A stretch of DNA of 64,000 nt, from assembly GCF_000973625.1 (NCBI RefSeq), contig NZ_CP007501.1, positions 310,001 to 374,000 of the forward strand. The letters are read 5' to 3'. The DNA comes from Polynucleobacter duraquae (GTDB lineage Bacteria > Pseudomonadota > Gammaproteobacteria > Burkholderiales > Burkholderiaceae). This document shows positions 9,657 to 45,911 of the stretch, in pieces. How positions within the stretch are numbered: the stretch's first letter is position 1; each line of letters opens with the position of its first letter. The translations under genes and the position numbers were made by a program. The notes beneath the pieces were generated by a model. That model was given only the letters and a program-made list of their open reading frames with translations. It was not told where the DNA came from and did no database searches.

Positions 9657-11396
9657 GTGATCATATTTTCAGTTATCCTTAGTATTTCCCTTATTTATGT
9701 ATATCAAAACCAAGGGGGGAAGTATTTCGGGCGAAATCAGTCCGAATATTACGGACTGACTTCAGTCTGGGCATTATATTTTCTAATATTATTTGTGTTA
9801 AATAATTTTTTAAATAGTATTAATTCATTTATATATATATCTTGTATAATATTAATTATATTATTAACATATAGTATAAAAAAAATTAAGCTTATTACTG
9901 TATACTCTAAGTTTTTATTTTTAATATATATTTTAATATTTTTATCGTATATTATTTTTGATAAAAATTTATATAATAAAATTTATAATTGGGATGATTA
10001 TTCACATTGGTTAAGAGTATATAAAATATATTCTATTTATGGTTTAAATCATTTAAAAGTATCTGAGCTTGTATTAACTTACAACTCTTTTCCAAATAAT
10101 ATAATACAGCATTATCCTGCAATAAATTCGTATGTTGCATCTATATTATTTCCATACCCTTATTTTGATACTTTTAATGTATATTTTTTGCAAATATTTT
10201 TTTTATATATTATTATATTTGATTTATATATTTATCTTAGAGTTCCAGGCAATAAAGTAGTATTATTTCTACTAATTTCATTATTATTATTTTCTGGTTC
10301 AACACCTTTAAATCATAATTTATTGTCTGATATTGTTATTCCCGCCTTAATCGTATTGGGGCTCAGTCAAATAAAAAACAGTAATCTTAATATAAATTTC
10401 TTATTTTCAGGTTCACTTTTTGCTTATGCAATTATGATAAAACCTCCAACAGCTATTGTTTTGGTGTTTATTGCATTTACTAATTTAATTCTTATTGAAA
10501 ATAAATTTAAATATAAATGGTTTAAAGTAATGCTTATGTTTTTTTCAATATTAATCCCTTATATTTTATTTTTATTAATTTATATACCTTATTTAAATAC
10601 TGGTTCAACCGGCATTCCCAATGGTAATATTACTCATATTATAAACAGCGTTATAAATAATTTCTTTGAATTTTTTAGGGTTGAACTTTTGGGGCCTATT
10701 TTTTCATTGAAGCCAAGCAAGTCATCTGTTAATTTAATCTCAATAATCTTTATTTGCTGGTGCTATTTTGTAAATAGTGATAAAAGAAATGTAATATATG
10801 TATTATCTAGCCTATCTATATATTTATTATACCTGGCAATCACATATAATTTTGTAGTATTAGATTCATCCAATGAAAGATTTGCATCTTTTGACCGGTA
10901 TTTCTTAAGTTATTATATATATATAATGTTTTATTTTATGCATTATATTTTTACTAATGAAAAAATTAAAAATTATACGTGGATATTGATCATATTATTA
11001 TATTTTAATACATGCTATTTCGTACCAAATTATTTATTATTAATGATTCCTGTAATTTTTATTGCTTATTTATTGAGGACTGTTCTACAAAATAAATTAT
11101 TTTTAATTAATTACTTTCTTCCAATTTTCTTTATCGCATCCACTATTATTATGGGGCACAAGTTTTATCCGCCAAAATATCTTGTAGAGAACGGATTATT
11201 CTTGCAACAATTCGCTATAGTTTCTAAAAATTCAGCTGACGATATTGTCATTATTGAAGTATGCAATCCCACTCAGTATGATTATTTAGCTCTTTCATAT
11301 TACAGTAATTTTTCTAATAATTTTTCTGTTATAGAGATTAAAAAATGTTCGGGTGATTTTAAATACAGGTATGCGTCTGGTAAAAATTATAATTAG
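9657..11396 (+). CDS. Polytopic membrane protein, possible GT-C-type glycosyltransferase
   Basis: 579-aa protein with roughly a dozen hydrophobic helices and a short C-terminal soluble tail. The first long loop contains WDDYSHW (Asp113, Asp114, His117), placed like the acidic first-loop motif of GT-C enzymes such as ArnT/PMT relatives, so a periplasmic sugar transferase using a polyprenyl-phosphate donor is possible. GTG start 9657 is preceded by GAGGAAG at a suitable distance. This is the most AT-rich gene in the window, full of TTA, ATA and AAT codons, suggesting recent acquisition. It could instead be a repeat-unit polymerase. No close family is recognised. Confidence 0.6.
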   Translation: MIIFSVILSISLIYVYQNQGGKYFGRNQSEYYGLTSVWALYFLILFVLNNFLNSINSFIYISCIILIILLTYSIKKIKLITVYSKFLFLIYILIFLSYIIFDKNLYNKIYNWDDYSHWLRVYKIYSIYGLNHLKVSELVLTYNSFPNNIIQHYPAINSYVASILFPYPYFDTFNVYFLQIFFLYIIIFDLYIYLRVPGNKVVLFLLISLLLFSGSTPLNHNLLSDIVIPALIVLGLSQIKNSNLNINFLFSGSLFAYAIMIKPPTAIVLVFIAFTNLILIENKFKYKWFKVMLMFFSILIPYILFLLIYIPYLNTGSTGIPNGNITHIINSVINNFFEFFRVELLGPIFSLKPSKSSVNLISIIFICWCYFVNSDKRNVIYVLSSLSIYLLYLAITYNFVVLDSSNERFASFDRYFLSYYIYIMFYFMHYIFTNEKIKNYTWILIILLYFNTCYFVPNYLLLMIPVIFIAYLLRTVLQNKLFLINYFLPIFFIASTIIMGHKFYPPKYLVENGLFLQQFAIVSKNSADDIVIIEVCNPTQYDYLALSYYSNFSNNFSVIEIKKCSGDFKYRYASGKNYN

Positions 11397-11437: not shown

Positions 11438-11788
11438 TTATGCGTATGACAGATATATGCCCATAATTATGAATCCTGATCCAATAAAGTTTGATTTTGA
11501 AACCTCTTCGCCTAAAATTAGACTTGAAAGAAAAGGTATCATCACAAACGTTAGCCCTGATATAGGTATGGCAACATTTAAGGGTACTACCCTAATTGTC
11601 TGTATCCAAAAAATCATTGCGATTGCATATAGACCTAATCCGGTAATAATCCAGATATTTTGAAGGGCTGCTGGTATAAATTGATTAAAACCTTCCGCAA
11701 GGCTTTCTGCTCCATATTTAAGGGAGATCTGACCAAGAGAGGTTAGAGTTGCGACCATAACAAGCGTTAAAAAATGTTTTAGAGTCAT
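11438..11788 (-). CDS. Small EamA/DMT-family membrane protein (ArnE/ArnF-like)
   Basis: 116-aa protein with four hydrophobic helices and a one-domain EamA architecture. Seen: TSLGQISLKYGAESL in helix 1, VVPLNVAIPISGLTFVMIPFLS in helix 3, and the LGEEVSKSNFIGSGFIIMGIYL ending typical of small drug/metabolite-transporter proteins. ArnE/ArnF pairs of this size flip undecaprenyl-phosphate-linked sugars. The neighbouring divergent GT2 gene looks like a polyprenol-phosphate glycosyltransferase, which fits that role. Only 28 bases separate the two divergent start codons. No second ArnE/F-like partner is seen here, so it may form homodimers or pair with a protein encoded elsewhere. Confidence 0.7.
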   Translation of the reverse strand: MTLKHFLTLVMVATLTSLGQISLKYGAESLAEGFNQFIPAALQNIWIITGLGLYAIAMIFWIQTIRVVPLNVAIPISGLTFVMIPFLSSLILGEEVSKSNFIGSGFIIMGIYLSYA

Positions 11789-11816: not shown

Positions 11817-12776
11817 ATGAATTTAAAAAAAATTTCCGTTGTAATTCCCTGCTATCGTGTTAAAAATCATATTCTAGCTGTTATTGAGGGAATAGGTCAG
11901 GAAGTTTCTACTATTTATGTAATTGATGATTTTTGCCCAGAATTTTCTGGCGATCATGTAGGGATAAATTGCGTAGATAGGCGAGTGATTGTTTTAAGAA
12001 ATAATTTTAATTTAGGCGTCGGTGGCTCAGTAATGGTTGGGTATAAAAGGGCGTTAAAAGATGGTGCTGACGTAATTGTAAAAATTGATGGTGATGGACA
12101 AATGGATCCGTCATTGCTTATGAGATTTGCTTCACCAATCATTTCCGGTGTTGCTGATTATTGCAAGGGCAATAGATTTTATGATCTTGAGGGTCTCAAT
12201 TCTATGCCAAAAGTAAGATTGCTGGGTAATGCTGGTCTATCTTTTATTGCTAAATTTTCAACAGGCTATTGGAATTTATTTGATCCAACTAATGGCTATA
12301 CAGCAATCAGCAGAGAGGTTGCATCACGGATTCCTTATGAAAAAATTAGTAAAAGATATTTTTTTGAAACTGATATTTTATTTAGGTTAAATCTTTTAAG
12401 GGCAGTTGCAGTTGATATTCCAATGACCTCAATATATTCGAATGAGGTTAGCAACTTACGCATTAAAAAAATATTTTTTGAATTTCTATATAAAAACTTT
12501 AGAAATTACCTAAAAAGAATTTTTTATAATTATTATTTACGCGATATGTCTGTCGCTTCCATTGAATTGCCTCTGGGAATATGTTTATTCGGCTTTGGCC
12601 TTATTTATGGTTTGGCTGGCTGGTGGCATAGCTCCTTAAGCGGTTCAAGTACACCGGTTGGAACCATAATGCTCTCCTCGGTCACAATCTTAACGGGCAT
12701 ACAGTTTCTGCTTGCATTTATTAACTACGACATAGGATACGTCCCTACAAAGCCTATTTCAAAGCTAGATTACTAA
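11817..12776 (+). CDS. Polyprenol-phosphate-type GT2 glycosyltransferase with C-terminal membrane helices
   Basis: 319 aa. The GT-A domain has SVVIPCYRV, VIDDFCPE, NNFNLGVGGSVMVGYKRAL and the donor/metal motif KIDGDGQMD near residue 90, as in dolichol- or undecaprenyl-phosphate hexose synthases. FDPTNGYTAISR and FETDILFRLN follow. Two hydrophobic helices near residues 255-275 and 285-305 anchor the C-terminus, as in ArnC/GtrB relatives. The likely product is a polyprenyl-phosphate sugar in the inner membrane, flipped by the adjacent DMT protein and used by a GT-C enzyme (inference). It leads the plus-strand run into the acyl-synthesis genes. Confidence 0.75.
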   Translation: MNLKKISVVIPCYRVKNHILAVIEGIGQEVSTIYVIDDFCPEFSGDHVGINCVDRRVIVLRNNFNLGVGGSVMVGYKRALKDGADVIVKIDGDGQMDPSLLMRFASPIISGVADYCKGNRFYDLEGLNSMPKVRLLGNAGLSFIAKFSTGYWNLFDPTNGYTAISREVASRIPYEKISKRYFFETDILFRLNLLRAVAVDIPMTSIYSNEVSNLRIKKIFFEFLYKNFRNYLKRIFYNYYLRDMSVASIELPLGICLFGFGLIYGLAGWWHSSLSGSSTPVGTIMLSSVTILTGIQFLLAFINYDIGYVPTKPISKLDY

Positions 12777-12805
12777 TTTCTATCAAAACAAATTTCAAGG
12801 TCTTA

Positions 12806-13105
12806 ATGCTTACTTTTGACAATATAATTTCCCTTATTCAGGATTCCTTAGATGGGCTGTATAGCGCATCCATGATTGAATCAAAAATTCAAATATCTGA
12901 TAACACGCCCCTTTTTGGTGGGCAATCAAATATAGATTCTATGTGCTTCGTGGCCTTAATAACAGATGTCGAGGACGGTTTATGTAGATCAACTGGTAAG
13001 GATGTCTTTGTTGTACTTTCCGATATAGAGGAGCTTTACCCTGATTCACCCGTGCTAACAGCTGGGATGTTAGCCAATTATTTGGTAAGCCTTGGTAATG
13101 ATTAA
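12806..13105 (+). CDS. Acyl carrier protein-like protein (first of two)
   Basis: 99-aa acidic protein with a predicted four-helix ACP fold. The phosphopantetheine site is Ser45 in the N-I-D-S-M context. This differs from the usual D-S-L, although the Asp-Ser core is kept. The loop before it (TPLFGGQSN) resembles stand-alone carriers of biosynthetic clusters more than fatty-acid AcpP. It would tether the growing acyl chain for the adjacent reductase, condensing enzyme and hydratase. Its stop overlaps the ATG of the next gene by 8 bases (ATGATTAA). It needs a phosphopantetheinyl transferase, which is not encoded here. Confidence 0.75.
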   Translation: MLTFDNIISLIQDSLDGLYSASMIESKIQISDNTPLFGGQSNIDSMCFVALITDVEDGLCRSTGKDVFVVLSDIEELYPDSPVLTAGMLANYLVSLGND

Positions 13106-13820
13106 TGCGGCGAATGATGGCGCCCAAGTGATGGTAGTGACTGGAACAAGTCGGGGGATTGGGTTCGAGATTGCAAATTGTTTTTTGCAAAAAGGATTCG
13201 TTGTGGTTGGATGCAGCAGAGGAGCGCAAACAATTCAACACCCAAGTTATAAACATTACATAGTGGATGCTTGCAATGAACTTGAAGTAAAAAAATGGGT
13301 AAGAACCGTAAAAAATGAATATAGAAAAATCAATATTTTGATTTGTAACGTTGGCCTTGTGCAGCTCGGTGCCGTGACTGGTGCTACAAGTTTAGAGAGC
13401 TTTAAATCGTTCTTAGATTCAAATTTAGTAAGCACTTTTTTAGTTTGCCGTGAATTTTCTAAAGTTATGATGCTTCAGAGGTATGGTCGAATTATTAATA
13501 TTGGATCCATCATGTCGGAGATGCACGCTCCAGGGACCTGTGCTTACGCGCCTACAAAATTGGCCGTTGTTGAATTTACAAAAGTGCTTGCGCGTGAATT
13601 GGCTGATTATGGCGTCACATGCAACATTGTTTCTCCTTCAATGGTGAGGACTGACTCAAATCTAGTTTTTGGGAGTAAGTGGGAAAAGGCTATGCTCGAC
13701 ATGCAAACAATTAAACGCCCAATTGAAGCGTCTGAGTTATGCCACTTGATAGATTTCTTTGCATCCCCCTTGAGTTCTATCGTGACAGGTCAAATTCTGC
13801 ATACTTGTTTTGTGAATTAA
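13098..13820 (+). CDS. SDR oxidoreductase, FabG-like
   Basis: Short-chain dehydrogenase of about 240 aa. TGTSRGIG is the cofactor-binding motif; NVG replaces the more common NAG; INIGSIMSE holds the catalytic Ser; YAPTK gives the Tyr and Lys. These match 3-oxoacyl-ACP reductases. With an ACP immediately upstream and a KAS III downstream, it probably reduces a beta-ketoacyl-ACP in the cytoplasm. ATG 13098 is chosen because it gives an 8-base stop-start overlap with the ACP gene. A TTG two codons earlier is an alternative. The substrate is inferred from context only. Confidence 0.8.
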   Translation: MINAANDGAQVMVVTGTSRGIGFEIANCFLQKGFVVVGCSRGAQTIQHPSYKHYIVDACNELEVKKWVRTVKNEYRKINILICNVGLVQLGAVTGATSLESFKSFLDSNLVSTFLVCREFSKVMMLQRYGRIINIGSIMSEMHAPGTCAYAPTKLAVVEFTKVLARELADYGVTCNIVSPSMVRTDSNLVFGSKWEKAMLDMQTIKRPIEASELCHLIDFFASPLSSIVTGQILHTCFVN

Positions 13821-13826
13821 ATTCGT

Positions 13827-14531
13827 ATGGGACTACGTTTTCCTCAATTGGGGTCTTATAGATATAGTGTTCACACCCTACAAACTGGGCCTTTTAAGGA
13901 AAATTGTTACGTTGTCGTTGGCGGTAATGGAGAAGATGCCGTAATTATAGATCCTGGCGGTGAGGAGGATTATTTAAAGACTGAAATTGACTCTTTGGGC
14001 GTTAATATCAACATGATTTTGCTGACCCACGGCCACTTTGATCATATTGGGGCTGTTGAGAATTTAGCTAATTATTATGGGGTTCTAGTACATGCCCACC
14101 AGATTGAAAAGGCATTGATAAGGCAGGCTGGGATTTATGCCTATCGATTCAATAAGGAGAGATTAATTCCACCTGTTAATGTTACATATTTTGACGAATG
14201 CCAAGATTTATACTGGCCTGGAGGGGTCATAACCACAATTCCTTGCCCGGGTCATACAGCGGGTTGCGTAAGTTATGGTTTTGAATCTGAAATAGTGTTT
14301 ACAGGTGATACTTTATTTAGGGGTTATGTTGGACCAACAAATTACCCTACTAGTAATTACCATGATTTAATAAATTCAGTAGAGAGTCTTCTAGCTAATT
14401 TGCCACCTGATTGCATTATTTTTCCTGGGCATGGTAGGTCTTGGCTGGCGGGGGATGCGACAGTATGGTGGAACGGGATTTCTAATAATCCTCCACAATT
14501 TCATTTATTCGGAGATGATAAAGGTGGCTAA
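13827..14531 (+). CDS. MBL-fold metallo-hydrolase (glyoxalase II-like)
   Basis: 234-aa metallo-beta-lactamase-fold protein with a complete dinuclear metal site: H68-G-H70-F-D72-H73, PGHTAG near residue 147, the metal-bridging Asp in FTGDTLF, and the final His in PGHG. It is shorter than glyoxalase II and lacks its C-terminal glutathione-binding domain. Inside an ACP/KAS III/FabG operon it may act as a thioesterase releasing or proof-reading an acyl thioester, as some MBL enzymes do for polyketide thioesters. That role is inference. Its stop overlaps the following KAS III gene. Confidence 0.8.
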   Translation: MGLRFPQLGSYRYSVHTLQTGPFKENCYVVVGGNGEDAVIIDPGGEEDYLKTEIDSLGVNINMILLTHGHFDHIGAVENLANYYGVLVHAHQIEKALIRQAGIYAYRFNKERLIPPVNVTYFDECQDLYWPGGVITTIPCPGHTAGCVSYGFESEIVFTGDTLFRGYVGPTNYPTSNYHDLINSVESLLANLPPDCIIFPGHGRSWLAGDATVWWNGISNNPPQFHLFGDDKGG

Positions 14532-15525
14532 TAAGAGGTCAATCGGAATTCTAGGTGTGGGAAAGTGTATTCCAGAAACACTTTTAACAAATGAAGAGGT
14601 TGAGAAAAAAGCTGGACTTCCTATTGGGACAATAGAGGCAAAAACAGGCGTTAAAAAAAGATATATAGCCAGCGAATCAGAAACTGCCTCTGGATTGTCT
14701 GCGATAGCTTGCGAGGCAGCCCTTAATTCAGCCAAGATTTGTTCGGAGCAAGTCAATTCAATAATTGCTTGCACTTTTACTGCAGACTATGTAATGCCAG
14801 CATTGGCATGCAAAGTGCATCAGTTGCTGGGTGCAAAAAATGCTTCTGCATTTGACGTAATGGCCAATTGCACTGGATTTCAGGTAGGCCTCAATCTTAT
14901 GTCTGATCGTCTAACATCAGATGTTAGTCAGTCTTATGGTTTGGTTGTTGGAGCAGCCTTGCAATCAAGGTTTGTCAACTGGAGCGATTCTAGTTCTTGT
15001 ATGTATTTTGGTGATGGTTTCGGAGCTGCAGTTTTAGGTGAGGTACCAGAGGGCTATGGATTTTTATCCCACGATACCTTAACTAATTCTTCAGTTTACG
15101 AATCAGTGAGGATACGCGGTGGCGGATCTAGTTTTCCAATGCGACCTGAAAATATAAGTAGTAATTTGAATTACTATGAAATTAACGGCATGGAAGTGTG
15201 GAAGCAAGTTGTGCAATATCAACCTAAGATCATTAAAAGCGCACTCGCTAAAGCGGGTTTAAGTATTGATGATGTGGATTTTTTTATTTTTCACCAAGCA
15301 AATATGAATCTCATAAGCTATTTAATGGGCAAAATGAAGATGTCTATAGATAAAACTCATACTAATGTTGCTGAGATAGGTAATACTGCAGAGGCTTCTA
15401 TGGCTATAGCTCTGTGCGAAGCCGTTCAGGAGAATAAAATTAAAAGCGGGGATGTTGTAGTTATTTCAGGAGTAGGCGCTGGGTTTACCTATGGTGCATC
15501 TGTGATGAGATGGTGGGCTCCATGA
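14515..15525 (+). CDS. 3-oxoacyl-ACP synthase III (FabH-like)
   Basis: Thiolase-fold condensing enzyme with an intact Cys-His-Asn triad: C119 in ANCTGF, H260 in FHQAN and N290 in GNTAEAS. The RGGG segment and the terminal GVGAGFTYGA match KAS III enzymes. ATG 14515 and GTG 14524 are both possible; GTG has GGAG nine bases upstream and an 8-base overlap with the preceding stop. An ATG much further upstream (14431) would add residues encoded inside the hydrolase gene and is unlikely. In tetronate pathways a FabH-like enzyme works with an FkbH-like protein and an ACP, and both are encoded just downstream. Confidence 0.88.
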   Translation: MIKVANKRSIGILGVGKCIPETLLTNEEVEKKAGLPIGTIEAKTGVKKRYIASESETASGLSAIACEAALNSAKICSEQVNSIIACTFTADYVMPALACKVHQLLGAKNASAFDVMANCTGFQVGLNLMSDRLTSDVSQSYGLVVGAALQSRFVNWSDSSSCMYFGDGFGAAVLGEVPEGYGFLSHDTLTNSSVYESVRIRGGGSSFPMRPENISSNLNYYEINGMEVWKQVVQYQPKIIKSALAKAGLSIDDVDFFIFHQANMNLISYLMGKMKMSIDKTHTNVAEIGNTAEASMAIALCEAVQENKIKSGDVVVISGVGAGFTYGASVMRWWAP

Positions 15526-16802
15526 GTTACTTGATCGATGATGTAAAAGTTAAAAAACTTAATTTTGATCTAATAAAAATTGGGGATACTGCAGAGATCA
15601 CTCATAAGATCACGCAGGATGACGTTAATTTATTTGCATCATTAACTGGTGACTTTAATCCTCTGCATGTAAATAAAGAATATGCAAAAACTACACGATT
15701 TCATAAGCCAGTAGTTCATGGGATGCTATCTGCATCCTTTATATCTCCACTAATCGGCACATGTTTGCCAGGGGAAGGTGCGCTGTGGTCATCGCAAAAC
15801 CTCGAGTTTTTAAGGCCAGCATTTGTTGACGATACTCTTATAGTTCAATCCACTGTTATTCAAAAATCTGTTGCTACTCGATCACTTATATTGGATACAA
15901 AAGTAGCTAATCAGCACAATCAAATACTGGTATCAGGCAGATCATTAGTTAAGGTTCTTGAATCTGAGGGTGAGCATGCAACAGTCGGCTCAGGTGATGG
16001 GGTTCAGGGTCAACCTATTGGATTAAAGCAGTCGCATATACAAAATTCCTCATCTACTGACAATGGACGAATTGTCTTAATAACTGGAGCAAGTCGTGGA
16101 ATTGGTGCGGCCATTGCGTCCAAGCTTGCCGAACGGGGGTATAAGGTTGTAGTTAATTACAGTAGTGATGCCGATGGCGCATCAGACCTTATTAAAAAAA
16201 TATGCTCAATGGGATATGTGGCTGTAGATGGTAAGGCTGATGTTTCAAAGATTGAGGACCTGGAGAACTTAAAAATACGCATCCAGAAGAGTATTGGCTC
16301 AATTACGGATGTTGTGCACTGTGCCTCCCCGCTTCCAATCCCAACGGCATTCGAGCTACTTTCGTGGTCAGATTTTCAGTTACAAATAGACGTGCAATTG
16401 AAAGGTGCCTTTAATTGCACCAAAGTATTTTTGCCCTCCATGCTTGAATTAAAAAAGGGAACGTTTACTTATTTAAGCTCTATCTTTGCTGAAGGAACTC
16501 CTCCTGGCCTCCAGGCTCACTATGTATCAACTAAAGCTGCCTTATCTGCCTTTGGACGCTCTATAGCGGCCGAGTATGGGAATAGGGGTATTCGTTCTAA
16601 TATTGTTGCGCCAGGGATGACGCAAACAGATATGATTTCTGGAGTGCCTGACAAAACAAAATTATTAGCAAAAATGAATACTCCCCTAAGGAAAATTGCT
16701 ACTCCTGAAGATATTGCAAATGCCGTAGAATTTTTAGTCGGGGATAATAGCGGTCACATTACCGGCGAAACCATTCGCGTATGTGGTGGAATCACAATGT
16801 GA
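15522..16802 (+). CDS. Fusion of MaoC-like (R)-enoyl hydratase and FabG-like reductase
   Basis: 426-aa two-domain protein. Residues about 10-145 form a hot-dog MaoC/PhaJ hydratase with the catalytic Asp/His segment TGDFNPLHVN and KPVVHGML. A polar Gly/Ser/Gln linker covers about 150-180. Residues about 182-426 form an SDR with TGASRGIG, YLSSIFAEG, YVSTK and a C-terminal GHITGETIRVCGG typical of FabG. The two activities would interconvert 3-hydroxyacyl, enoyl and 3-oxoacyl thioesters on one polypeptide. ATG 15522 overlaps the KAS III stop by 4 bases (ATGA). The fusion lies in one continuous frame, with no sign of an assembly artefact. Confidence 0.85.
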   Translation: MSYLIDDVKVKKLNFDLIKIGDTAEITHKITQDDVNLFASLTGDFNPLHVNKEYAKTTRFHKPVVHGMLSASFISPLIGTCLPGEGALWSSQNLEFLRPAFVDDTLIVQSTVIQKSVATRSLILDTKVANQHNQILVSGRSLVKVLESEGEHATVGSGDGVQGQPIGLKQSHIQNSSSTDNGRIVLITGASRGIGAAIASKLAERGYKVVVNYSSDADGASDLIKKICSMGYVAVDGKADVSKIEDLENLKIRIQKSIGSITDVVHCASPLPIPTAFELLSWSDFQLQIDVQLKGAFNCTKVFLPSMLELKKGTFTYLSSIFAEGTPPGLQAHYVSTKAALSAFGRSIAAEYGNRGIRSNIVAPGMTQTDMISGVPDKTKLLAKMNTPLRKIATPEDIANAVEFLVGDNSGHITGETIRVCGGITM

Positions 16803-16809
16803 GGAAAGA

Positions 16810-18642
16810 ATGAAAAAGCCCACTGATTTACCTGGCGAAAAAATTAGCCGCACCAATCCTAGAGAGCGTAAGTATTCAGATTACATAGAATTGTTATCGG
16901 ATATTAAGAAAAATAATGAATTTTCTAAAGATTTCCCAAGTCTTAAAATTGCAGTACTAAGAAATTTTACAGTTGAGCCACTATTGCCCGTACTAGAGGC
17001 AGAAATTTATCTTGCAGGATTCATACCAAATATATGGGTTGGTGACTTCGATAATATTGCGTTCGAAGCAATGTCAATTACGTCTGGATTGGAGGAGTTT
17101 GAACCAGATTTTATATTGATTTTTAATTGGCTGGATACAATTAGCCCGGCCTTAACCACGCAATTTATCTTAAAATCGAAAGGTGAGATTGACGAAGAAG
17201 TTGTGAGGGTGCGTCAGGTTTATAGAGATATTGAGGGTAGTCTACGCAAGAGTTTTTCTGTGCCCATTGCCATTACTAATTTTAACCTGCCAGTGGACTC
17301 AACCCTAGGAATCCTTGACAGCCAGGATTCTGACTATCAATTTCACACAATCCAGAATTTAAACCTTCAAATTTTACTTGATGCTAAAAGTTTTGCTGAT
17401 GTCTATATTCTTGATATCGCCAAAATATTTGCAGCGGAAGGTTATCTAAACGCATTCGATTCAAGACATTGGCAAATGGCGAGAGCCCCATTCACTCAGC
17501 GTGCTATTTTAACTATTTGTAATGAGCTTGGAAGATTGTTTAAGGCTTTGCGTGGAAAATCAAAGAAGTGTTTAGTGCTTGATTGTGACAACACTCTTTG
17601 GGGAGGTGTTATAGGCGAAGATGGAATGGGGGGTATCAAGCTAGGGACCACATTCCCCGGCTCTTGTTACAAAGCATTGCAAGAGGAGGTTTTGAACTTA
17701 AGAGAGCGAGGAGTAATTTTGGCCCTCTGCAGCAAAAATAACGAATCAGATGTACTTGAGGTATTAAATAATCATCCTGAAATGTTAATTAAGGAAAAGC
17801 ATGTCTCAACTTGGCAGATAAATTGGGATGACAAGGCTACAAATTTACGAAGACTAGCAAAAGAATTAAATATTGGCCTAGACAGTTTTGTTTTTGTTGA
17901 TGATAACGAATTTGAAATTAATCTTATTAGGGAGCAGTTGCCCGAAGTTGCTACGATACATTTAACGGGTAATACTTCCGGCTATAGAAGCCTGCTATCA
18001 AGTTTTGGATATTTTGATTCCCTTACATTTACTGCAGAGGATAGAAGAAAAAATGAAATGTATGGCGAAGCACATATTCGCAATAAGCTGGAATCTGAAT
18101 CAAGCTCGATCGAAGAATATCTTGAAAATCTTGGACTAGAGGCTGCTTTAGGAATTCCTACTATTTCTGATATTGCTCGATGTTCGCAGTTGACGCAAAA
18201 AACTAATCAATTCAACTTAACTACTTGTCGTTATAGTGAAGGGCAGATTGCTGAGTTGATATCTGACAAAGACTCTGACGTATTTTACTTGCGTGTGAAG
18301 GATAAGGTGGCTGACTTGGGTTTAGTTGGGGTCGCTGTAGTTAGGTATCGTGAACTTGAGGCTCAAATTGAAGCCTTTATGATGAGTTGTAGGGCAATTG
18401 GCCGAGGCGCAGAAACCGCATTACTCGCATATATTGCAAACCAATCCAAGAGTAAGCGCGGTTCACATTCCCTTTCTGCTAAGTACTTACACACAGCAAA
18501 GAATGAATCGCTCGTAAGAAACTTTTATGAGGAAAATGGATTCGAAAAAGTAAGTCAGCAGGGAGAAGACACTAATTGGGAGCTAGATCTCCGTACCGAA
18601 GAAATATCATATCCAGCATGGATCAAAATTAATGAAAGTTAG
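16810..18642 (+). CDS. FkbH-like HAD-family protein (glyceryl-ACP type)
   Basis: 610-aa protein of the FkbH family. An N-terminal region of about 250 aa precedes the HAD-IIIC domain with the nucleophile motif D258-C-D260-N-T, followed by SKNNESDV and FVDDNEFE. The C-terminal third resembles the GNAT-like domain of FkbH proteins (MSCRAIGRGAET, then LVRNFYEENGF). Family members such as RkE and FkbH dephosphorylate 1,3-bisphosphoglycerate and load D-glycerate onto an ACP, giving glyceryl-ACP. The carrier here is probably the ACP encoded 8 bases downstream. ATG 16810 is preceded by a strong GAGGAAAG ribosome-binding site. Actual substrate use is inferred. Confidence 0.88.
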   Translation: MKKPTDLPGEKISRTNPRERKYSDYIELLSDIKKNNEFSKDFPSLKIAVLRNFTVEPLLPVLEAEIYLAGFIPNIWVGDFDNIAFEAMSITSGLEEFEPDFILIFNWLDTISPALTTQFILKSKGEIDEEVVRVRQVYRDIEGSLRKSFSVPIAITNFNLPVDSTLGILDSQDSDYQFHTIQNLNLQILLDAKSFADVYILDIAKIFAAEGYLNAFDSRHWQMARAPFTQRAILTICNELGRLFKALRGKSKKCLVLDCDNTLWGGVIGEDGMGGIKLGTTFPGSCYKALQEEVLNLRERGVILALCSKNNESDVLEVLNNHPEMLIKEKHVSTWQINWDDKATNLRRLAKELNIGLDSFVFVDDNEFEINLIREQLPEVATIHLTGNTSGYRSLLSSFGYFDSLTFTAEDRRKNEMYGEAHIRNKLESESSSIEEYLENLGLEAALGIPTISDIARCSQLTQKTNQFNLTTCRYSEGQIAELISDKDSDVFYLRVKDKVADLGLVGVAVVRYRELEAQIEAFMMSCRAIGRGAETALLAYIANQSKSKRGSHSLSAKYLHTAKNESLVRNFYEENGFEKVSQQGEDTNWELDLRTEEISYPAWIKINES

Positions 18643-18650
18643 GTGGAAAT

Positions 18651-18893
18651 ATGATTAATAATGAAATACTTTTAAAAAATACTGTTGCCAAAGTGTTGGG
18701 CGTAAATCTAGATGATATCAATGATGACTCATCAATGGATAACTTGCATGAATGGGATTCGGTAAAGCATCTTAATCTTGTGCTTGCAATCGAGGAAGTA
18801 TTTGGAATTTCAATGACAGAGGAGCAATCTCTTGAGATGTTAAGTTTTCCACTAATCAAGTTAGTTTTATCTGAGCACAACATTAATTTTTAA
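18651..18893 (+). CDS. Acyl carrier protein (second; probable FkbH partner)
   Basis: 80-aa acidic protein with a standard ACP fold. Ser37 in EWDSVKHLNLVLAIEE is the phosphopantetheine attachment site. The WDS context is typical of carriers that accept unusual starter or glyceryl groups. It follows the FkbH-like gene by only 8 bases, as in glyceryl-ACP modules of tetronate and methoxymalonyl pathways. The AGGTGG sequence before ATG 18651 serves as ribosome-binding site. Having two different ACPs in one operon suggests that two acyl pools are kept separate and then joined. Confidence 0.85.
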   Translation: MINNEILLKNTVAKVLGVNLDDINDDSSMDNLHEWDSVKHLNLVLAIEEVFGISMTEEQSLEMLSFPLIKLVLSEHNINF

Positions 18894-18915
18894 AACTCCA
18901 TTACTAGAGGCTAAG

Positions 18916-20280
18916 TTGAATGAAATAGATACCCTCTTAAAGAGGATGGAGGGATTTGGCTCTCTTCCTGCAATTATTTGGAAAAATAACCAACTAAATT
19001 ACATTGAATTTGTTGATCTGATAAATGATTGGGAGTTAAAGCTTCCCAATCTCGGAGTTACTCGAGGAACGGTTTGTAGTGTACTAGGGGACTTTTCTCC
19101 TAAATGTTGCGCACTTTTTTTTGCATTAATGAAGGCTGGATCAATTGTTGTCCCGCTTACGAAATCAATAGTCAATGAAAGTGAGCAGTTTAAGCGGATT
19201 GCCGGCGTCCAAATATCAATTGAATTTGCTGATGATGATTCTTTCAATTCTAAAGTTGAAGATTCCTATCCAGATAATTTCTTAATAAAAGAATTTCGAT
19301 CCACAAAAAATTCATCTGGATTAGTAGTTTTTTCTTCTGGTTCAACGGGTGAGCCAAAGGGAATTTTGCACGATTTTGAATGTGTAATTCGTAAATTCAT
19401 TAGTCAACGCAAGGGATGGAAATCAATTTTATTTTTATTGATGGATCATTTTGGCGGATTCAATACGTTTATTGCGGCTTTTGCCTATGGTGGTGTTGCA
19501 GTTTGCGTACATGACCGCGATCCAAGCGCCATTTGCGAGGCGATTCAATCATCTCGTGCAACTCTTCTCCCAACAACACCCACCTTCATTAATTTATTGA
19601 TCGCATCTCGGGCTTTTATGTCATTCGATTTATCGTCAATAGAGCTCATAACATATGGTACTGAAGTAATGCCAGAGGCAACATTGAATAAATTGAAAAC
19701 AATTTTTCCAAATGCTTCATTAAAGCAAACATATGGCCTATCTGAGGTGGGTGTACTGCGCTCGAAGTCTGAGAATGATGCATCGCTTTGGGTAAAGATT
19801 GGTGGAGATGGTTTTGAGGTAAGAATTGAGAACAATATTTTATGGATAAAATCTGAGTCTAATATGGTCGGCTACCTCAATGCTCCATCACCCTTTGATG
19901 AGGGAGGGTGGATGTGCACGGGCGATCAAGTTGAGGTTAATGGCGACTACATGCGTATTATTGGCCGTAAATCTGAAATGATTAATGTAGGAGGCCAAAA
20001 GGTTTTCCCTGCGGAAATTGAAACCATTTTGCTCGAAGATGAGAATGTAAAAGAGGCTACTGTTTATGGGGTTAAAAATCCATTGATGGGGCATGTGGTT
20101 CATGCCAATATAGCCCTACTTGAGGAGGAATCCTCTGAAAATCTCACAATACGACTAAGAAAGTCGTGTATCTTAAAGCTAGCAAAATATAAGATTCCAG
20201 TAAAATTTAATGTTGTTCACGGCGAGAGTCAACGTAACGAACGTTTTAAAAAGATTCGGACAGGGCTTGATAAGTCCTAA
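18916..20280 (+). CDS. AMP-dependent acyl-CoA/acyl-ACP ligase
   Basis: 454-aa ANL-superfamily adenylating enzyme, somewhat shorter than typical acyl-CoA synthetases (500-550 aa). The P-loop-like motif SSGSTGEPKG is near residue 140, TYGLSEVG near residue 275, GDQVEVNGDYMRIIGRKSEMINVGG marks the hinge to the C-terminal domain, and KIRTG near the end carries the catalytic Lys. It probably activates a carboxylic acid as the AMP ester and loads it on one of the two ACPs. The only in-frame start fitting the N-terminus is TTG 18916, with AGAGG ten bases upstream. The acid substrate is unknown. Confidence 0.85.
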   Translation: MNEIDTLLKRMEGFGSLPAIIWKNNQLNYIEFVDLINDWELKLPNLGVTRGTVCSVLGDFSPKCCALFFALMKAGSIVVPLTKSIVNESEQFKRIAGVQISIEFADDDSFNSKVEDSYPDNFLIKEFRSTKNSSGLVVFSSGSTGEPKGILHDFECVIRKFISQRKGWKSILFLLMDHFGGFNTFIAAFAYGGVAVCVHDRDPSAICEAIQSSRATLLPTTPTFINLLIASRAFMSFDLSSIELITYGTEVMPEATLNKLKTIFPNASLKQTYGLSEVGVLRSKSENDASLWVKIGGDGFEVRIENNILWIKSESNMVGYLNAPSPFDEGGWMCTGDQVEVNGDYMRIIGRKSEMINVGGQKVFPAEIETILLEDENVKEATVYGVKNPLMGHVVHANIALLEEESSENLTIRLRKSCILKLAKYKIPVKFNVVHGESQRNERFKKIRTGLDKS

Positions 20281-20299
20281 GCGAATGTAAATATAGTCT

Positions 20300-21379
20300 A
20301 TGAGTAATCTTTATGAAATTCGTGATGTTGTGGATGACGATCTTAATGCTATCGCAAATTTAGCATCGGAAAATGAACTTCTTTTGGAAGGGCTGACACC
20401 ATCTATATTTTCTGTAATGTTGAGGTGGTTATATTCAAAATCTGAAATGGGTAAAAAGATACAAATACTAGCTCAAATTCCCACAGGGGTTATCGCTCAT
20501 TATGGCGGTGTCCCATTTAAGATGAAGTGGCATGAGAAAGCTATCTCTGCAACTCTGGCATCCAATCTAGTAGTTGATAGGAATTTTCGCAAGTACTCTC
20601 CTTTTTTTTCGTTACAGAAAGAGTTCATTAAAAGATACCAAGAAAAAGGATATAGCTTTGCTTATGGGGCTATAACTAGAGAGGGAGTTTTAAACCCTCA
20701 CCTTAGGATGGGGTGGAAGTCCTTAGGCTCCTTGGATGTCTACGTTAGACCCATTTCCCTTGCTTCCATTTTTGGAAAGTTGGTGAACTATCCCGTAATT
20801 TCATTGTTGGCTAAATTTCCACTACAACTAATACAAAAGCTTTGGGACGCTATCTTTTATTTAAGACATCATAATATCCAAGTTTTAGAGGAGACATCTT
20901 TTGCCGATTCAATGTCTTCCCCTTTGAATTGTTGGATGAAAAAAAAGAAAATTTGCGCTGTAAGATCAATCGAAGCCTTAAATTGGAGATTTTCTGCTTT
21001 TAAAGATAGGAATTATCGTATTTTTATTCCGTATGTAAATTCACTTCCAGCCGGCTACTTGGTTGTGAGATTAATGCCGATGAAACAATTTTTATCAGTT
21101 GCTATTATTGATCTTGTTGTTTTCAACGATGAAAAAAAAGTATTTAATGCCCTGATAAAAAGATGTATTTGCTTTGCTCGTCAAAGCAATGCAGATCTTG
21201 TTGCTTCTGCGTTTACAGATCATGATGAGTTAGCTAATTCTTTTCGCTGGGCTGGTTTTTTTAAATCACGTGAAAAATTTATAATTGTTGGACATTTTCC
21301 CAAGAGTGGAGATACAAAATTCTCAGAATTTAATTTTTCTGATTTTCATATCAATTGGTTTGATCATGATTATGTTTGA
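20300..21379 (+). CDS. GNAT-family N-acyltransferase
   Basis: 359-aa protein whose N-terminal half (IRDVVDDDLNAIANLASEN, then SATLASNLVVDRNFRKYSPFFSLQKEFI) matches the beta-strand/CoA-binding loop of GNAT enzymes. A second GNAT-like region lies in the C-terminal half, so it may be a tandem-GNAT or FemAB-like protein. It is followed by a PIG-L deacetylase gene and preceded by an acyl-activating set. A sensible role is transfer of the newly made acyl group from ACP or CoA onto a free amino group of a sugar (inference). No transmembrane helix is evident, so it would act in the cytoplasm. Confidence 0.65.
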   Translation: MSNLYEIRDVVDDDLNAIANLASENELLLEGLTPSIFSVMLRWLYSKSEMGKKIQILAQIPTGVIAHYGGVPFKMKWHEKAISATLASNLVVDRNFRKYSPFFSLQKEFIKRYQEKGYSFAYGAITREGVLNPHLRMGWKSLGSLDVYVRPISLASIFGKLVNYPVISLLAKFPLQLIQKLWDAIFYLRHHNIQVLEETSFADSMSSPLNCWMKKKKICAVRSIEALNWRFSAFKDRNYRIFIPYVNSLPAGYLVVRLMPMKQFLSVAIIDLVVFNDEKKVFNALIKRCICFARQSNADLVASAFTDHDELANSFRWAGFFKSREKFIIVGHFPKSGDTKFSEFNFSDFHINWFDHDYV

Positions 21380-21411
21380 TTGATCAATAGAAATACAAAC
21401 TACAAACTTTA

Positions 21412-22179
21412 ATGGCCACAGCACTTTTTCTATTTGCTCATCAGGATGATGAGTGTGGGGTTTTTCAAGCCATAGATTCTGAATTGAACTCAGGAAGTAC
21501 GGTACATTGCTGCTACTTTACTAGTGGCACCCCTAGCGGCTTAGATTCAAGTCGCCGTGATCTTGAGTCGCAGAAGGTGCTCGCAAGTCTGGGTATTGAC
21601 CCTAAAAATATGCACTTTATCGGCGGCCTGCAGTCTATACCTGATGGTAATTTAGTTGCCAATGTTAATTTTGCATATGAATGGATTCTTTCATTTCTGA
21701 AATCAAATGGAAATGTAATAAATATATATTTACCTGCATGGGAGGGTGGACATCCTGACCATGATGTTTTGCATGCTGTTGGAGTTAGGGCAGCTAATAA
21801 TGCAAACTTTATTGACACCACGTTTCAGTACCCCTTATACAATGGATATCACTGTTTTGGTCCATTCTTCAGAACTCTGCTTCCGCTGATTCAGAATGGA
21901 GATGTTCGCACTACCAACATACACATTTTCAATCGACTTAGATTCTTGGGGCTATGTCTTAGGTACCCCAGTCAGGTTAAAACTTGGATTGGTTTATTCC
22001 CTTTTTTTTTACTGCATTATTTTTTTTGGGGCACTCAGGATCTTCAAAAAGTTTCTCTTGATCGCCTGAGACAGAAGCCTCATGCTGGATCTTTATACTA
22101 CGAAAGAAGAAAATTTTCCTCTTGGGAAAAAATCTCTTCGGAATTAATTTTTTTTGAAAAAAATTACCTATTTTTATAA
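21412..22179 (+). CDS. PIG-L/LmbE-family deacetylase
   Basis: 255-aa Zn-dependent N-deacetylase. The metal motif AHQDDE is at residues 9-14 and the second motif HPDHD near residue 120. Family members remove acetyl from GlcNAc-type groups (PIG-L, MshB, BshB). It is the last gene of the plus-strand cassette, next to a GNAT gene, so the pair could exchange N-acetyl for another acyl group on an amino sugar. A hydrophobic Phe-rich stretch (FPFFLLHYFFW) near residue 200 may contact membrane lipid. That could mean a polyprenyl-linked substrate, though this is only a hint. Confidence 0.85.
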   Translation: MATALFLFAHQDDECGVFQAIDSELNSGSTVHCCYFTSGTPSGLDSSRRDLESQKVLASLGIDPKNMHFIGGLQSIPDGNLVANVNFAYEWILSFLKSNGNVINIYLPAWEGGHPDHDVLHAVGVRAANNANFIDTTFQYPLYNGYHCFGPFFRTLLPLIQNGDVRTTNIHIFNRLRFLGLCLRYPSQVKTWIGLFPFFLLHYFFWGTQDLQKVSLDRLRQKPHAGSLYYERRKFSSWEKISSELIFFEKNYLFL

Positions 22180-22269: not shown

Positions 22270-23298
22270 CTAAGGTACTAAACTCAAAAATAAGAATTCA
22301 AAGAAAATAATCAAGTGAACCACACCCTGTAACAGGGTGGTTCTGCCAATGGCAAGGGTGAGCGCCCCAATAAAAAAGCTCAGATACATAAGCGTCATAT
22401 TGAGTGAACTGATCCCCAGACTGATTGGTAAATCAAAGAAGATTGCAAATGCAGCTACAGTAGGTATTGTTAAACCAATACTCGCCAAGGCTGAGCCTAA
22501 AGCTAGATTCAAACTGCTTTGTAAGCGATTTGCTCTTGCTGCTCTAACTGCTGCATAAGCTTCGGGCAGTAGTACCAGAAGGGCGATAGCGATGCCAACG
22601 ACTGTTTTGGGTGCGCCAGCTGACTTTACTCCAGCCTCAATAGCAGGGTTAAGCGCCTCTGCCAAGCCGACCACAATCATCAGTGATAACAATAGAAGAA
22701 AGACGCTGACAGTAGTTTTTAAATTGCTGGGTTTATCCGCATGTATATCACTATCAGTCTTTTTATCTTCTGCTTTTGGGAGGTAGTAGTCACGATGGCT
22801 AACTGTTTGGAAGAAAATAAATGCACCGTAGAGGGCAAATGAAGCAATGCCAGCAAAGGCCAATTGGCTCTGAGTAAAGTCAGGGCCAGGAGTGCTCATG
22901 GTTGCTATTGGCATGACTAAAATGAAAGTCGCCAGGGCGGTAAGCACTGCTAGAGCTGAATTAGTTCCTTCATTGCGAAAAGACATCTCATGATGTTTAA
23001 AGCCACCCATGAAGATGCATAAACCAATTACGCCATTGACCACAATCATGACTGTGGCAAAAACTGCATCTCGAGCAATAAATTCAGAGCCTTCATGACC
23101 GGCTAACATCATCGTGATAATGAGTGATACTTCGATAATCGTGACGCTAATTGAGAGTACAAGTGTTCCATAAGGTTCACCAGTTTTATGGGCAATGACT
23201 TCAGCGTGGTGCACTGCCGACAGGACCGCTCCAATCAAGGTAAAACCCATTAAAGCAATGAACCAAGTTTGATTAAGTAATGGAGCTAAAGAGTGCAT
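22270..23298 (-). CDS. chaA: Ca2+/H+ (Na+/H+) antiporter, ChaA-like
   Basis: 342-aa inner-membrane cation exchanger with about eleven hydrophobic helices in two inverted Na_Ca_ex repeats. The first repeat carries GEPYGTLVLSISVTIIEVSLI and the second LLVLLPEAYAAVRAARANRLQSSLNLALGSALASIGLTIP, the acidic alpha-repeat signatures. A hydrophilic Lys/Asp-rich linker near residues 175-195 separates them. Length is close to ChaA of E. coli. It stands alone, convergent to the PIG-L gene, and marks the return to ordinary base composition after the AT-rich island. Preferred cation is not determinable here. Confidence 0.9.
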   Translation of the reverse strand: MHSLAPLLNQTWFIALMGFTLIGAVLSAVHHAEVIAHKTGEPYGTLVLSISVTIIEVSLIITMMLAGHEGSEFIARDAVFATVMIVVNGVIGLCIFMGGFKHHEMSFRNEGTNSALAVLTALATFILVMPIATMSTPGPDFTQSQLAFAGIASFALYGAFIFFQTVSHRDYYLPKAEDKKTDSDIHADKPSNLKTTVSVFLLLLSLMIVVGLAEALNPAIEAGVKSAGAPKTVVGIAIALLVLLPEAYAAVRAARANRLQSSLNLALGSALASIGLTIPTVAAFAIFFDLPISLGISSLNMTLMYLSFFIGALTLAIGRTTLLQGVVHLIIFFEFLFLSLVP

Positions 23299-45660: not shown

Positions 45661-45911
45661 GCAGTCCAGTTTACGATGTAAGTCGATATGGGCTCACCTC
45701 GGTGGATTCCCTTAAATTGATGCACTTGGACTCATTTGCAGGCTAAATCCCCTGAAATTGCTGGGGTCGATGATTTAAAATAGATTTCTCGGTCCAGTGC
45801 GTGAAATGACACCCAAGACAGCCAAAAGCGCCTGAAGTGTTGCGTACGGAATGCGAGAGTGGTTCGGTATAAGGCCGACCCCTAATATTTACCCATATCG
45901 AGGAAACATCA

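Follow-up and report, generated by a model that had tools for sequence, protein, structure and literature searches.

Many unusual N-acyl groups, whose origins are often unknown, are borne by the surface sugars of bacteria. In the wfp O-antigen locus of Flavobacterium psychrophilum, a dedicated acyl carrier protein (ACP) together with a reductase and two ketoacyl-ACP synthases have been proposed to make the 3,5-dihydroxyhexanoyl group present on Qui4N, in an O-antigen that is described as also containing L-FucNAc (PMC6519341). The viosamine island of Pseudomonas syringae and the glycosylation island of P. aeruginosa PAK are described in relation to 3-hydroxybutyryl viosamine (PMC3927599).

The present analysis concerns a window of 64,000 nucleotides from Polynucleobacter duraquae (contig NZ_CP007501.1, positions 310,001 to 374,000), one operon of which possesses the dedicated ACP, ketoacyl-ACP synthase (KAS) and ketoreductase of the aminotransferase-based islands (vio, wfp, pse and fdt). 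On balance, we lean towards the reading that this operon builds a dedicated acyl group, short and hydroxylated, which takes the place of the acetyl on an amino sugar linked to polyprenyl phosphate; this sugar would then decorate a surface polysaccharide or another glycoconjugate.

Organization of the operon and of its acyl-building cassette

The open reading frames of the window include 11 genes, all on the + strand, that form one run at 11817-22179, with intergenic gaps of -17 to +32 bp for the start codons that we have chosen. The initial annotation had described ten tightly packed genes: the packing is indeed tight (gaps of at most 32 bp), but the count is 11. All the genes that it had named were found at their positions and on the + strand. 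Two genes had been left unnamed, the one encoding an MBL-fold hydrolase (13827-14531) and the GT2 glycosyltransferase gene that opens the run. A promoter scan gave fewer sites than in shuffled sequences and a terminator scan about as many, and neither was used. The acyl-building cassette comprises:

12806..13105, + strand: ACP1, atypical acyl carrier protein (DSM carrier motif, residue 44)
13098..13820, + strand: FabG-like SDR ketoreductase (PF13561/PF00106; S-Y-K motif)
13827..14531, + strand: MBL-fold hydrolase, candidate acyl thioesterase (PF00753; HGHFDH)
14515..15525, + strand: KAS III condensing enzyme (PF08541/PF08545; PRK09352, 273.5 bits for a cut-off of 249)
15522..16802, + strand: MaoC dehydratase-SDR reductase fusion (PF01575, PF13561; MaoC motif GDFNPLH)
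16810..18642, + strand: FkbH (TIGR01686, 293.7 bits for a cut-off of 146.65; PF21211)
18651..18893, + strand: ACP2, partner of FkbH (PF00550)
18916..20280, + strand: AMP-forming acyl ligase (PF00501/PF13193)

The gene families, the intact motifs and the packing of the operon are established by computation. Pfam and NCBIfam confirmed the families that had been proposed for loading (FkbH/ACP2), condensation (KAS III), reduction and dehydration (FabG and MaoC-SDR) and activation (AMP-ligase). The serines are intact in both ACPs, as are the S...Y...K motif in both SDRs (FabG and MaoC-SDR) and the C119/H260/N290 triad of KAS III. ACP1, which has no Pfam match, is also the first member of the cassette in L008, L012, L092 and L094. 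The MBL hydrolase is a recurrent member of the cassette, and its best solved relative is named hydroxyacylglutathione hydrolase. FkbH harbors an N-terminal domain, a HAD-IIIC domain and a C-terminal GNAT domain, together with a DCDNTLWG motif whose D258-C259-D260 is invariant in an alignment of 30; its model resembles 3slr and the C-terminus of this model resembles GNATs. FkbH is predicted to load a glyceryl-type unit on ACP2, the gene of which is found immediately 3′ of the FkbH gene in seven other loci (L008, L012, L045, L054, L089, L092 and L094). The AMP-ligase shares 56-63% identity with its counterparts in L008, L045 and L054.

Recurrence of the cassette and readings as a free metabolite

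The core of the cassette (ACP, FabG, hydrolase, KAS III, MaoC-SDR, FkbH, ACP and AMP-ligase) recurs, whole or partial, in several phyla, and since the same gene order is found in other phyla, this assemblage is more than chance. The search for the conserved gene set and its neighbors that the initial annotation had proposed often located the cassette near amino-sugar genes. Both amino-sugar genes, either of pseudaminic acid type or FdtA plus an aminotransferase, and a small GNAT adjoin it in six loci (L012, L045, L054, L089, L092 and L094), the small GNAT being a PseH above cut-off in three of them; L125 is a seventh cassette locus with a small GNAT. This recurrence beside amino-sugar genes, which is established by computation, therefore favors the decoration of an amino sugar by a novel acyl group, as had been suggested, and disfavors a tetronate. 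L016 carries FkbH and KAS III, but its nearby sugar genes are dTDP-sugar genes only, and a GNAT relative (28%) is found in the same genome next to an MBL gene on a different contig. The flanks of L010 and L011 are too short to judge neighboring sugar genes, and the KAS III match of G344 is devoid of any other cassette gene across 19.9 kb. Within the same genus, L091, L095 and L096 carry other FkbH types. The polysaccharide slot of this genus is flanked by ChaA.

FkbH, ACP and KAS III (TIGR01686 and PF00550 for the first two), the trio from which a small tetronate-like metabolite had been envisaged, are all present. The operon might then make a tetronate or other free metabolite, GNAT and PIG-L being bystanders, which we consider highly improbable. 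Besides the proximity of amino-sugar genes, the relatives of GNAT, PIG-L and FkbH share contigs, identity of contigs being inferred from equal lengths in a comparison of all 33 GNAT rows with 34 FkbH and 15 PIG-L rows, out of 120 listed for each of these two. RK-682-type tetronate pathways feature an E2-type acyltransferase and dehydratase tailoring genes; neither an E2-type acyltransferase nor this tailoring set was detected by Pfam among the 11 operon genes and the nine genes upstream, the scan ending at the right edge of the operon. Furthermore, KAS III keeps its Cys-His-Asn triad and groups in the tree with the KAS IIIs of sugar cassettes. The KAS III of a Streptomyces KAS III-FkbH-ACP trio, a single unproven plasmid cluster, has no aligned His and a very long branch in this tree, where it was trimmed to its last 360 residues.

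Phylogenetic placement in ordinary fatty-acid synthesis, the outcome against which the initial annotation had warned, was not observed either: the operon KAS III is not the FabH of the genome, and the only other KAS III match of this genome (1486468-1487433) is 34% identical to it and lies on a separate branch. Methoxymalonyl-ACP (FkbG-K) pathways include an acyl-CoA dehydrogenase and a 3-hydroxyacyl-CoA dehydrogenase. No such Pfam family was found among the operon genes, and a methoxymalonyl reading was set aside because both dehydrogenases are missing from the operon.

Acceptor side, tandem GNAT and associated deacetylases

The genes expected to act on the acceptor are located at both ends of the operon and just upstream:

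9657..11396, + strand: polytopic membrane protein of 579 aa, about 11 predicted TM segments (hydropathy count)
11438..11788, - strand: small SMR/EamA-type protein (EamA, 31.7 bits)
11817..12776, + strand: GT2 glycosyltransferase (PF00535), two C-terminal TM segments (by hydropathy)
20300..21379, + strand: putative tandem-GNAT N-acyltransferase of 359 aa (AlphaFold model, mean pLDDT 90.6)
21412..22179, + strand: PIG-L/LmbE-family de-N-acetylase (PF02585, 44.6 bits for a cut-off of 28.2; HQDD, HPDHD)

The GNAT and the deacetylase previously proposed at the end of the operon were thus recovered, the latter by PF02585 and the former by its predicted structure. In the operon, the acceptor side consists of GT2, PIG-L and the 359-aa acyltransferase, and no aminotransferase was detected by Pfam among the 11 operon genes and the nine upstream genes, up to the right edge of the operon. 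GT2, whose counterparts in L106 and L209 are 58% and 63% identical to it, has AglJ (35.7 bits) and PpgS (32.3 bits) as best NCBIfam matches, both far below cut-offs, and is predicted to be a polyprenyl-phosphate HexNAc synthase. The best NCBIfam matches of the SMR/EamA-type protein are ArnE (42.2 bits) and ArnF (38.5 bits), both under cut-off, and it is a candidate for the flippase subunit that would move a polyprenyl-phosphate amino sugar; the gene run of L106 also includes an ArnE-like gene (30.7 bits, under cut-off). The 579-aa membrane protein, which has no Pfam or NCBIfam match, is a candidate periplasmic GT-C transferase, and large membrane proteins are found near the module in L008 (seven segments by the same hydropathy count) and L209 (by eye). 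To our knowledge, the PIG-L enzymes studied act on GlcNAc already attached to an aglycone.

The exchange could also occur on a nucleotide sugar, PIG-L deacetylating a UDP-HexNAc, the GNAT re-acylating it and an ordinary glycosyltransferase using the product, as could be suggested by the sugar-nucleotide genes and small GNATs of the six amino-sugar loci. However, those six loci contain aminotransferases or Pse genes; in the window operon, an aminotransferase is lacking and the best matches of the GT2 are polyprenyl-phosphate synthases, with an ArnE/F-like neighbor (all below cut-off). Overall, such a UDP-sugar exchange seems unlikely.

At E 0.001, neither Pfam nor NCBIfam gave a match for the 359-aa protein, which is called a GNAT because of its AlphaFold model. 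The top match of this model is the eukaryotic N-myristoyltransferase (NMT; Foldseek, VIA-align): the alignment is nearly full length with 10-13% identity, the last residues of the model fall on the NMT C-terminus, and the predicted tandem GNAT fold extends to the C-terminus, as in NMT. As a model, this fold is established by computation. Membership in the NMT family by sequence was ruled out (no NMT match in Pfam or NCBIfam, and the low identity given above). The family is rare: a search set of about 5.8 billion yielded 33 proteins. The protein ends with DHDYV, a conserved acidic terminus positioned where NMT has its catalytic C-terminus, and the family members all end at one alignment column (32/32, one truncated protein being dropped). 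In a wider set of relatives, a terminal D-x-D-x-any pattern is found in 35 of 59 rows, among which four pairs are two pieces of one protein and five rows are cut by the locus end. Catalysis by a C-terminal carboxylate is therefore weakened as a firm claim, also because several distant relatives carry extra residues beyond the GDxD motif.

A NodB- or YdjC-type deacetylase is encoded at most 1.5 kb from the GNAT relative in 16 of 40 loci, mostly the highest-scoring of 60 match rows, belonging to two other phyla. The other 24 loci show no deacetylase of at least 40 bits in a scan that misses some, such as the Polysacc_deac_1 gene (81.4 bits) adjoining the GNAT in L212, which was not counted. A Fisher test compared these 16/40 with 2/62 in a control set (63 of 80 named FkbH loci, those of at least 11 kb, L008 being removed), the two sets coming from different phyla and their rows not being independent. 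By computation, closer GNAT relatives are linked with unrelated families of deacetylases (PIG-L, NodB and YdjC), which suggests that the amine is set free before it is acylated. No deacetylase was found in the loci of relatives scoring below 100 bits (0/11). In the control set, weak family members (26-67 bits) without deacetylase are present in 11 of the 63 FkbH loci besides L008, often directly after FkbH-ACP2; therefore, such GNATs may act without one.

These weak members, together with the use of non-sugar amines by tandem GNATs such as NMT, would fit an enzyme whose target is not the amine of a sugar but, for instance, a sugar hydroxyl, a lipid or flagellin. Two matches to the flagellin family are present in the genome, so that flagellin glycosylation is also conceivable. 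Given the linkage of closer relatives to PIG-L, NodB and YdjC, we nevertheless regard another acceptor as distinctly unlikely. Flagellin as sole target was set aside as less probable, no flagellar family being found by Pfam among the operon genes and the nine upstream genes scanned.

Proposed pathway and comparison with known systems

In the lipid-linked exchange that we favor, FkbH would charge ACP2 with a three-carbon glycolytic unit, KAS III, FabG and MaoC-SDR would extend and reduce it on ACP1, and the MBL hydrolase and AMP-ligase would release and re-activate, or prime, acids. GT2 would synthesize Und-P-HexNAc, PIG-L would strip the acetyl group from the HexNAc and the NMT-fold tandem GNAT, using its acidic C-terminus, would N-acylate the free amine from the custom acyl thioester. 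The ArnE/F-like protein would then flip the product and the 579-aa membrane protein would transfer it. Each substrate, the sequence in which the steps occur, the structure of the acyl group and the glycan finally formed are inferred, and it is a guess that FkbH and KAS III belong to a single linear pathway. Against this reading, GT2, ArnE/F and GT-C are assigned by scores under the curated cut-offs or from hydropathy.

More tentatively, lipid-linked N-acyl swapping may constitute a class of bacterial pathways, in which one of three unrelated deacetylases (PIG-L, NodB/DUF3473 or YdjC) would act on a polyprenyl-phosphate HexNAc and an NMT-fold enzyme with a catalytic acidic C-terminal tail would then re-acylate it, the donors coming from operon-encoded carrier-protein acyl factories. 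No description of such a system was found among the matches listed in the open-access literature. The acceptor modules with which the portable acyl-building cassette is paired differ between phyla, and the exchange of modules in one polysaccharide slot would explain how strains gain new N-acyl chemistry. With the acceptor module of the window, N-acyl sugars would have a second route of synthesis, in which an acetyl group is removed and replaced instead of an aminotransferase being used. Its acyltransferase, a bacterial relative by predicted fold of the drug target NMT, raises the question of C-terminal catalysis: if true, N-acyl swapping with a catalytic tail would end the claim that catalysis by the C-terminus is unique to NMT in the GNAT superfamily.

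Among the compared systems, the plasmid cassette of Streptomyces canus (L110), which we take to be of methoxymalonyl-ACP type, shares with the window an FkbH-type gene and a dedicated ACP but has the acyl-CoA and 3-hydroxyacyl-CoA dehydrogenases that the window operon lacks. In systems of NaxD and Arn type, the freed amine is not known to be acylated again; the window differs by the addition of a re-acylating enzyme and of an acyl-making cassette, and by its deacetylase, a PIG-L. These systems process undecaprenyl-phosphate amino sugars with a GT2, a deacetylase, a small flippase and a membrane transferase (PMC10927774 for NaxD), of which the window encodes candidate counterparts. Eukaryotic NMT, described as a tandem GNAT fold (PMC4964394), resembles the model of the 359-aa protein over nearly its whole length but differs by its expected donor and acceptor. 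The wfp O-antigen locus possesses, like the window, an ACP, a ketoacyl-ACP synthase and a reductase; unlike in the window, the acceptor amine is carried by a nucleotide sugar and a PglD-like enzyme serves as acyltransferase, and the main text of the article mentions neither FkbH nor AMP (PMC6519341). The viosamine islands, likened here by description and not by sequence, differ by an amine coming from the aminotransferase VioA, by VioB, listed as an acetyltransferase, by a flagellin target and by fewer acyl genes, but have in common with the window an ACP, a KAS III (VioS) and a ketoreductase (VioR) encoded next to sugar-amine/N-acyl genes (PMC3927599).

Operon organisation and recurrence of the acyl cassette

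The initial annotation described ten tightly packed genes; the packing was confirmed (intergenic gaps of -17 to +32 bp), but the run comprises eleven + strand genes, the MBL-fold hydrolase and the leading glycosyltransferase (GT2) having gone unnamed. It is packed as one operon would be.

Features of the window
11817-22179, + strand: GT2, ACP1, FabG, MBL-fold hydrolase, KAS III, MaoC-SDR, FkbH, ACP2, AMP-ligase, 359-aa GNAT, PIG-L
13827-14531, + strand: MBL-fold hydrolase
20300-21379, + strand: 359-aa tandem-GNAT acyltransferase (hereafter GNAT), predicted N-myristoyltransferase (NMT)-like fold
22270-23298: ChaA antiporter gene
45767-45903: Rfam icd-II motif match, upstream of the ORF starting at 45912

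Nine of the eleven genes were assigned by Pfam and NCBIfam, which gave no match for ACP1 (its DSM motif is present) or for the 359-aa gene at 20300, and catalytic motifs of the operon enzymes were intact wherever checked. The genome is a single contig of 2.03 Mb. Upstream of the operon lie surface-polysaccharide genes (Pfam families; farther upstream by eye), including epimerase and 2-epimerase genes read as an L-FucNAc set.

The acyl cassette (the eight genes from ACP1 to AMP-ligase) is a portable unit with a link to amino sugars. An alignment search with FkbH retrieved at least 80 named loci among the matches listed, and KAS III was found in the same stretch in seven of these 80.

FkbH loci that also carry KAS III
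L008, Eremiobacterota: gene order of the window, ACP1 through AMP-ligase
L010, Acidovorax MAG: cassette cut by contig end
L011, Rhodospirillales: two divergent arms
L012, Omnitrophota: order of the window, without ligase hit
L016, Eremiobacterota: FkbH locus with KAS III
L045, Ignavibacteriales: cassette cut by contig end
L054, Geobacteraceae: order of the window from FabG through AMP-ligase; ACP1 farther along

Within the genus, FkbH was matched (E <= 1e-60) in seven of 151 genomes, counting that of the window: G129 and G133 carry all eight cassette genes, G059 carries FkbH-ACP2-AMP-ligase and, at a contig end, ACP1-FabG, and the FkbH proteins of G030, G149 and G065 are of other types. In the phylum sample (398 genomes), KAS III (E <= 1e-62) was found in G000, G301 and G344; G301 has all eight genes in order, and the other cassette genes are absent from the 19.9 kb fetched for G344.

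The initial annotation had proposed searching genomes for the conserved gene set and its neighbours. The cassette recurs with Pse genes or with FdtA and an aminotransferase, which fits acyl decoration of an amino sugar. PseH, PseG, PseI and PseF (all above cut-off) adjoin it in L054, PseH and PseG in L012, and PseC, PseG and PseH in G059. In L045, G129 and G133 its neighbours are FdtA, a small GNAT and an aminotransferase of the DegT type that scores below equivalog cut-offs. G301 also has a small GNAT, which shares 60-62% identity with the G129 and G133 proteins. The exception is L016, with only dTDP-sugar genes nearby; the flanks of L010 and L011 are too short to judge acceptor genes.

Other features were observed in these and further loci. 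An MBL-fold hydrolase also lies between FabG and KAS III in L008, L012, L054, L092, L094, L105, L106 and L125, and may be a thioesterase. A phosphopantetheinyl transferase gene immediately precedes ACP1 in L008 (4956-5924). A Streptomyces plasmid (L108, 5346-8537) carries a KAS III-FkbH-ACP trio, possibly a tetronate-like cluster; in the alignment, its KAS III has no catalytic His.

Acceptor genes and deacetylases

The window operon contains no aminotransferase; GT2, PIG-L and the 359-aa protein stand in its place. The same acceptor set is found in another phylum, in L008 (GT2 next to PIG-L, then the cassette, then GNAT), whose KAS III is the nearest to that of the window in the tree (69% identity). 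The 359-aa family is rare: a large protein set held 33 members, and matches came from one of 186 genus genomes and one of 398 phylum genomes, in both cases that of the window. Among the matches listed, its members share a contig (judged by identical length) with FkbH in nine cases, with PIG-L in seven and with both in four.

PIG-L relatives occur in three of 186 genus genomes, that of the window, G008 and G556. The last two carry the run ACP1-FabG-MBL-KAS III-AMP-ligase-PIG-L without FkbH, ACP2 or MaoC-SDR, and one GNAT relative each (353-373 aa; hhalign probability 96.5, E 8.4e-10). G556 has a GT2 (58% identical to that of the window) and an ArnE-like gene within the run; the stretch fetched from G008 contains a GtrA-family gene but lacks a GT2. 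With no FkbH part, and with an SDR and a GMC-type oxidoreductase upstream of the run (2292-6301 in L105, the G008 locus; 2661-6667 in L106, that of G556), these loci suggest another acyl group on a similar acceptor module.

In three genus genomes with differing acyl modules, that of the window, G008 (90% over 336 aa) and G129 (89% over the 115 aa fetched), ChaA marks the edge of the polysaccharide island, so that the island looks like one exchange slot. ChaA lies at 12966-13982 in L105 and 10655-10999 in L093.

In the phylum of L008, GNAT was matched in five of 149 genomes (that of L008, G158 and the three below), and relatives (E <= 1e-12) were found in the phyla of L054 (27 of 257 genomes) and L012 (23 of 245).

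GNAT regions in the phylum of L008
G699: KAS III-SDR-GNAT-PIG-L-GT2
G720: SDR and GNAT; NodB-type gene on the opposite strand; GT2 about 6 kb off
G724 (weak match): GT2, YdjC and GNAT end to end

A deacetylase gene (>=40 bits) is present in 16 of 40 GNAT-relative regions (NodB-type 13, YdjC 3) versus three of 63 control FkbH loci (L008, L053, L082). These controls are the members of the 80 named loci with a length of 11 kb or more. With L008 removed (2/62), Fisher p = 2.7e-6, the two sets coming from different phyla, with non-independent rows and the 40 regions being mostly the highest-scoring of 60 match rows. Adding one 36-bit hit gives 17 regions, in which the nearest deacetylase is always on the same strand and directly adjacent in 14; Pfam confirmed all ten tested, and L212 has one further deacetylase missed by the scan. 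The strongest reason to infer that re-acylation follows prior release of the amine is that three deacetylase families, PIG-L, NodB and YdjC, are found next to a single family of acyltransferases. Evidence against it comes from 11 control FkbH loci that hold weak members of the GNAT family (scores of 26-67 bits) and no deacetylase. Among GNAT loci, deacetylases were found in 17 of 29 at >=100 bits and in none of 11 below; the signal is confined to closer GNAT relatives.

The weak members (L017, L022, L028, L030, L036, L044, L048, L050, L058, L068, L070) mostly lie just downstream of FkbH-ACP2. Compact pairs of a NodB/DUF3473-type deacetylase and a tandem GNAT, with touching or overlapping ORFs, were seen in L186, L188, L190, L192, L194, L196, L206, L208 and L209, which belong to two other phyla. 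L209 has in one run a membrane protein, GT2 (63% identical to that of the window), KAS III, SDR, an ACP-like gene, GNAT and NodB.

The window GT2 has two C-terminal TM segments. PpgS (polyprenyl-phospho-GalNAc synthase) is among the best curated matches of the GT2s of the window, L008, L106, L122 and L123, and AglJ among those of four of these five; a neighbouring SMR protein best matches ArnE and ArnF, all below cut-off. NaxD deacetylates undecaprenyl-phosphate-linked GalNAc (PMC10927774). These facts are consistent with steps on Und-P-HexNAc, without proving them.

Possible acyl group and known systems

As a guess from established enzyme types, FkbH and ACP2 would supply a glyceryl unit, KAS III would add malonyl, FabG would reduce, and MaoC-SDR would dehydrate and reduce, giving a short dihydroxy acyl chain. 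Because FkbH, ACP2 and MaoC-SDR are missing from G008 and G556, the product may also be a simpler 3-hydroxyacyl group like that of the viosamine island.

A gene for a methyltransferase (about 310 aa) lies inside the cassette in L012 (7814-8755), L045 (1031-1960), L054 (7844-8782) and L089, the G059 locus (13035-13964). These proteins form one family (35-55% identical among members) in loci of the pseudaminic-acid/FdtA type, and it is absent from the window. Since a di-O-methylglyceric acid derivative of pseudaminic acid has been reported in Campylobacter jejuni flagellin (PMC3958885), a glyceryl-derived group is plausible for the cassettes with the methyltransferase.

In the literature searched, we found no description of the FkbH/MaoC-SDR/MBL cassette as a unit that recurs across phyla, or of its combination with an NMT-fold acyltransferase and a deacetylase. 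Flagellin islands of Enterobacteriaceae and Aeromonas hold fatty-acid-type genes, and glycan islands of F. psychrophilum and P. syringae hold acyl-making genes (PMC6519341, PMC3927599).
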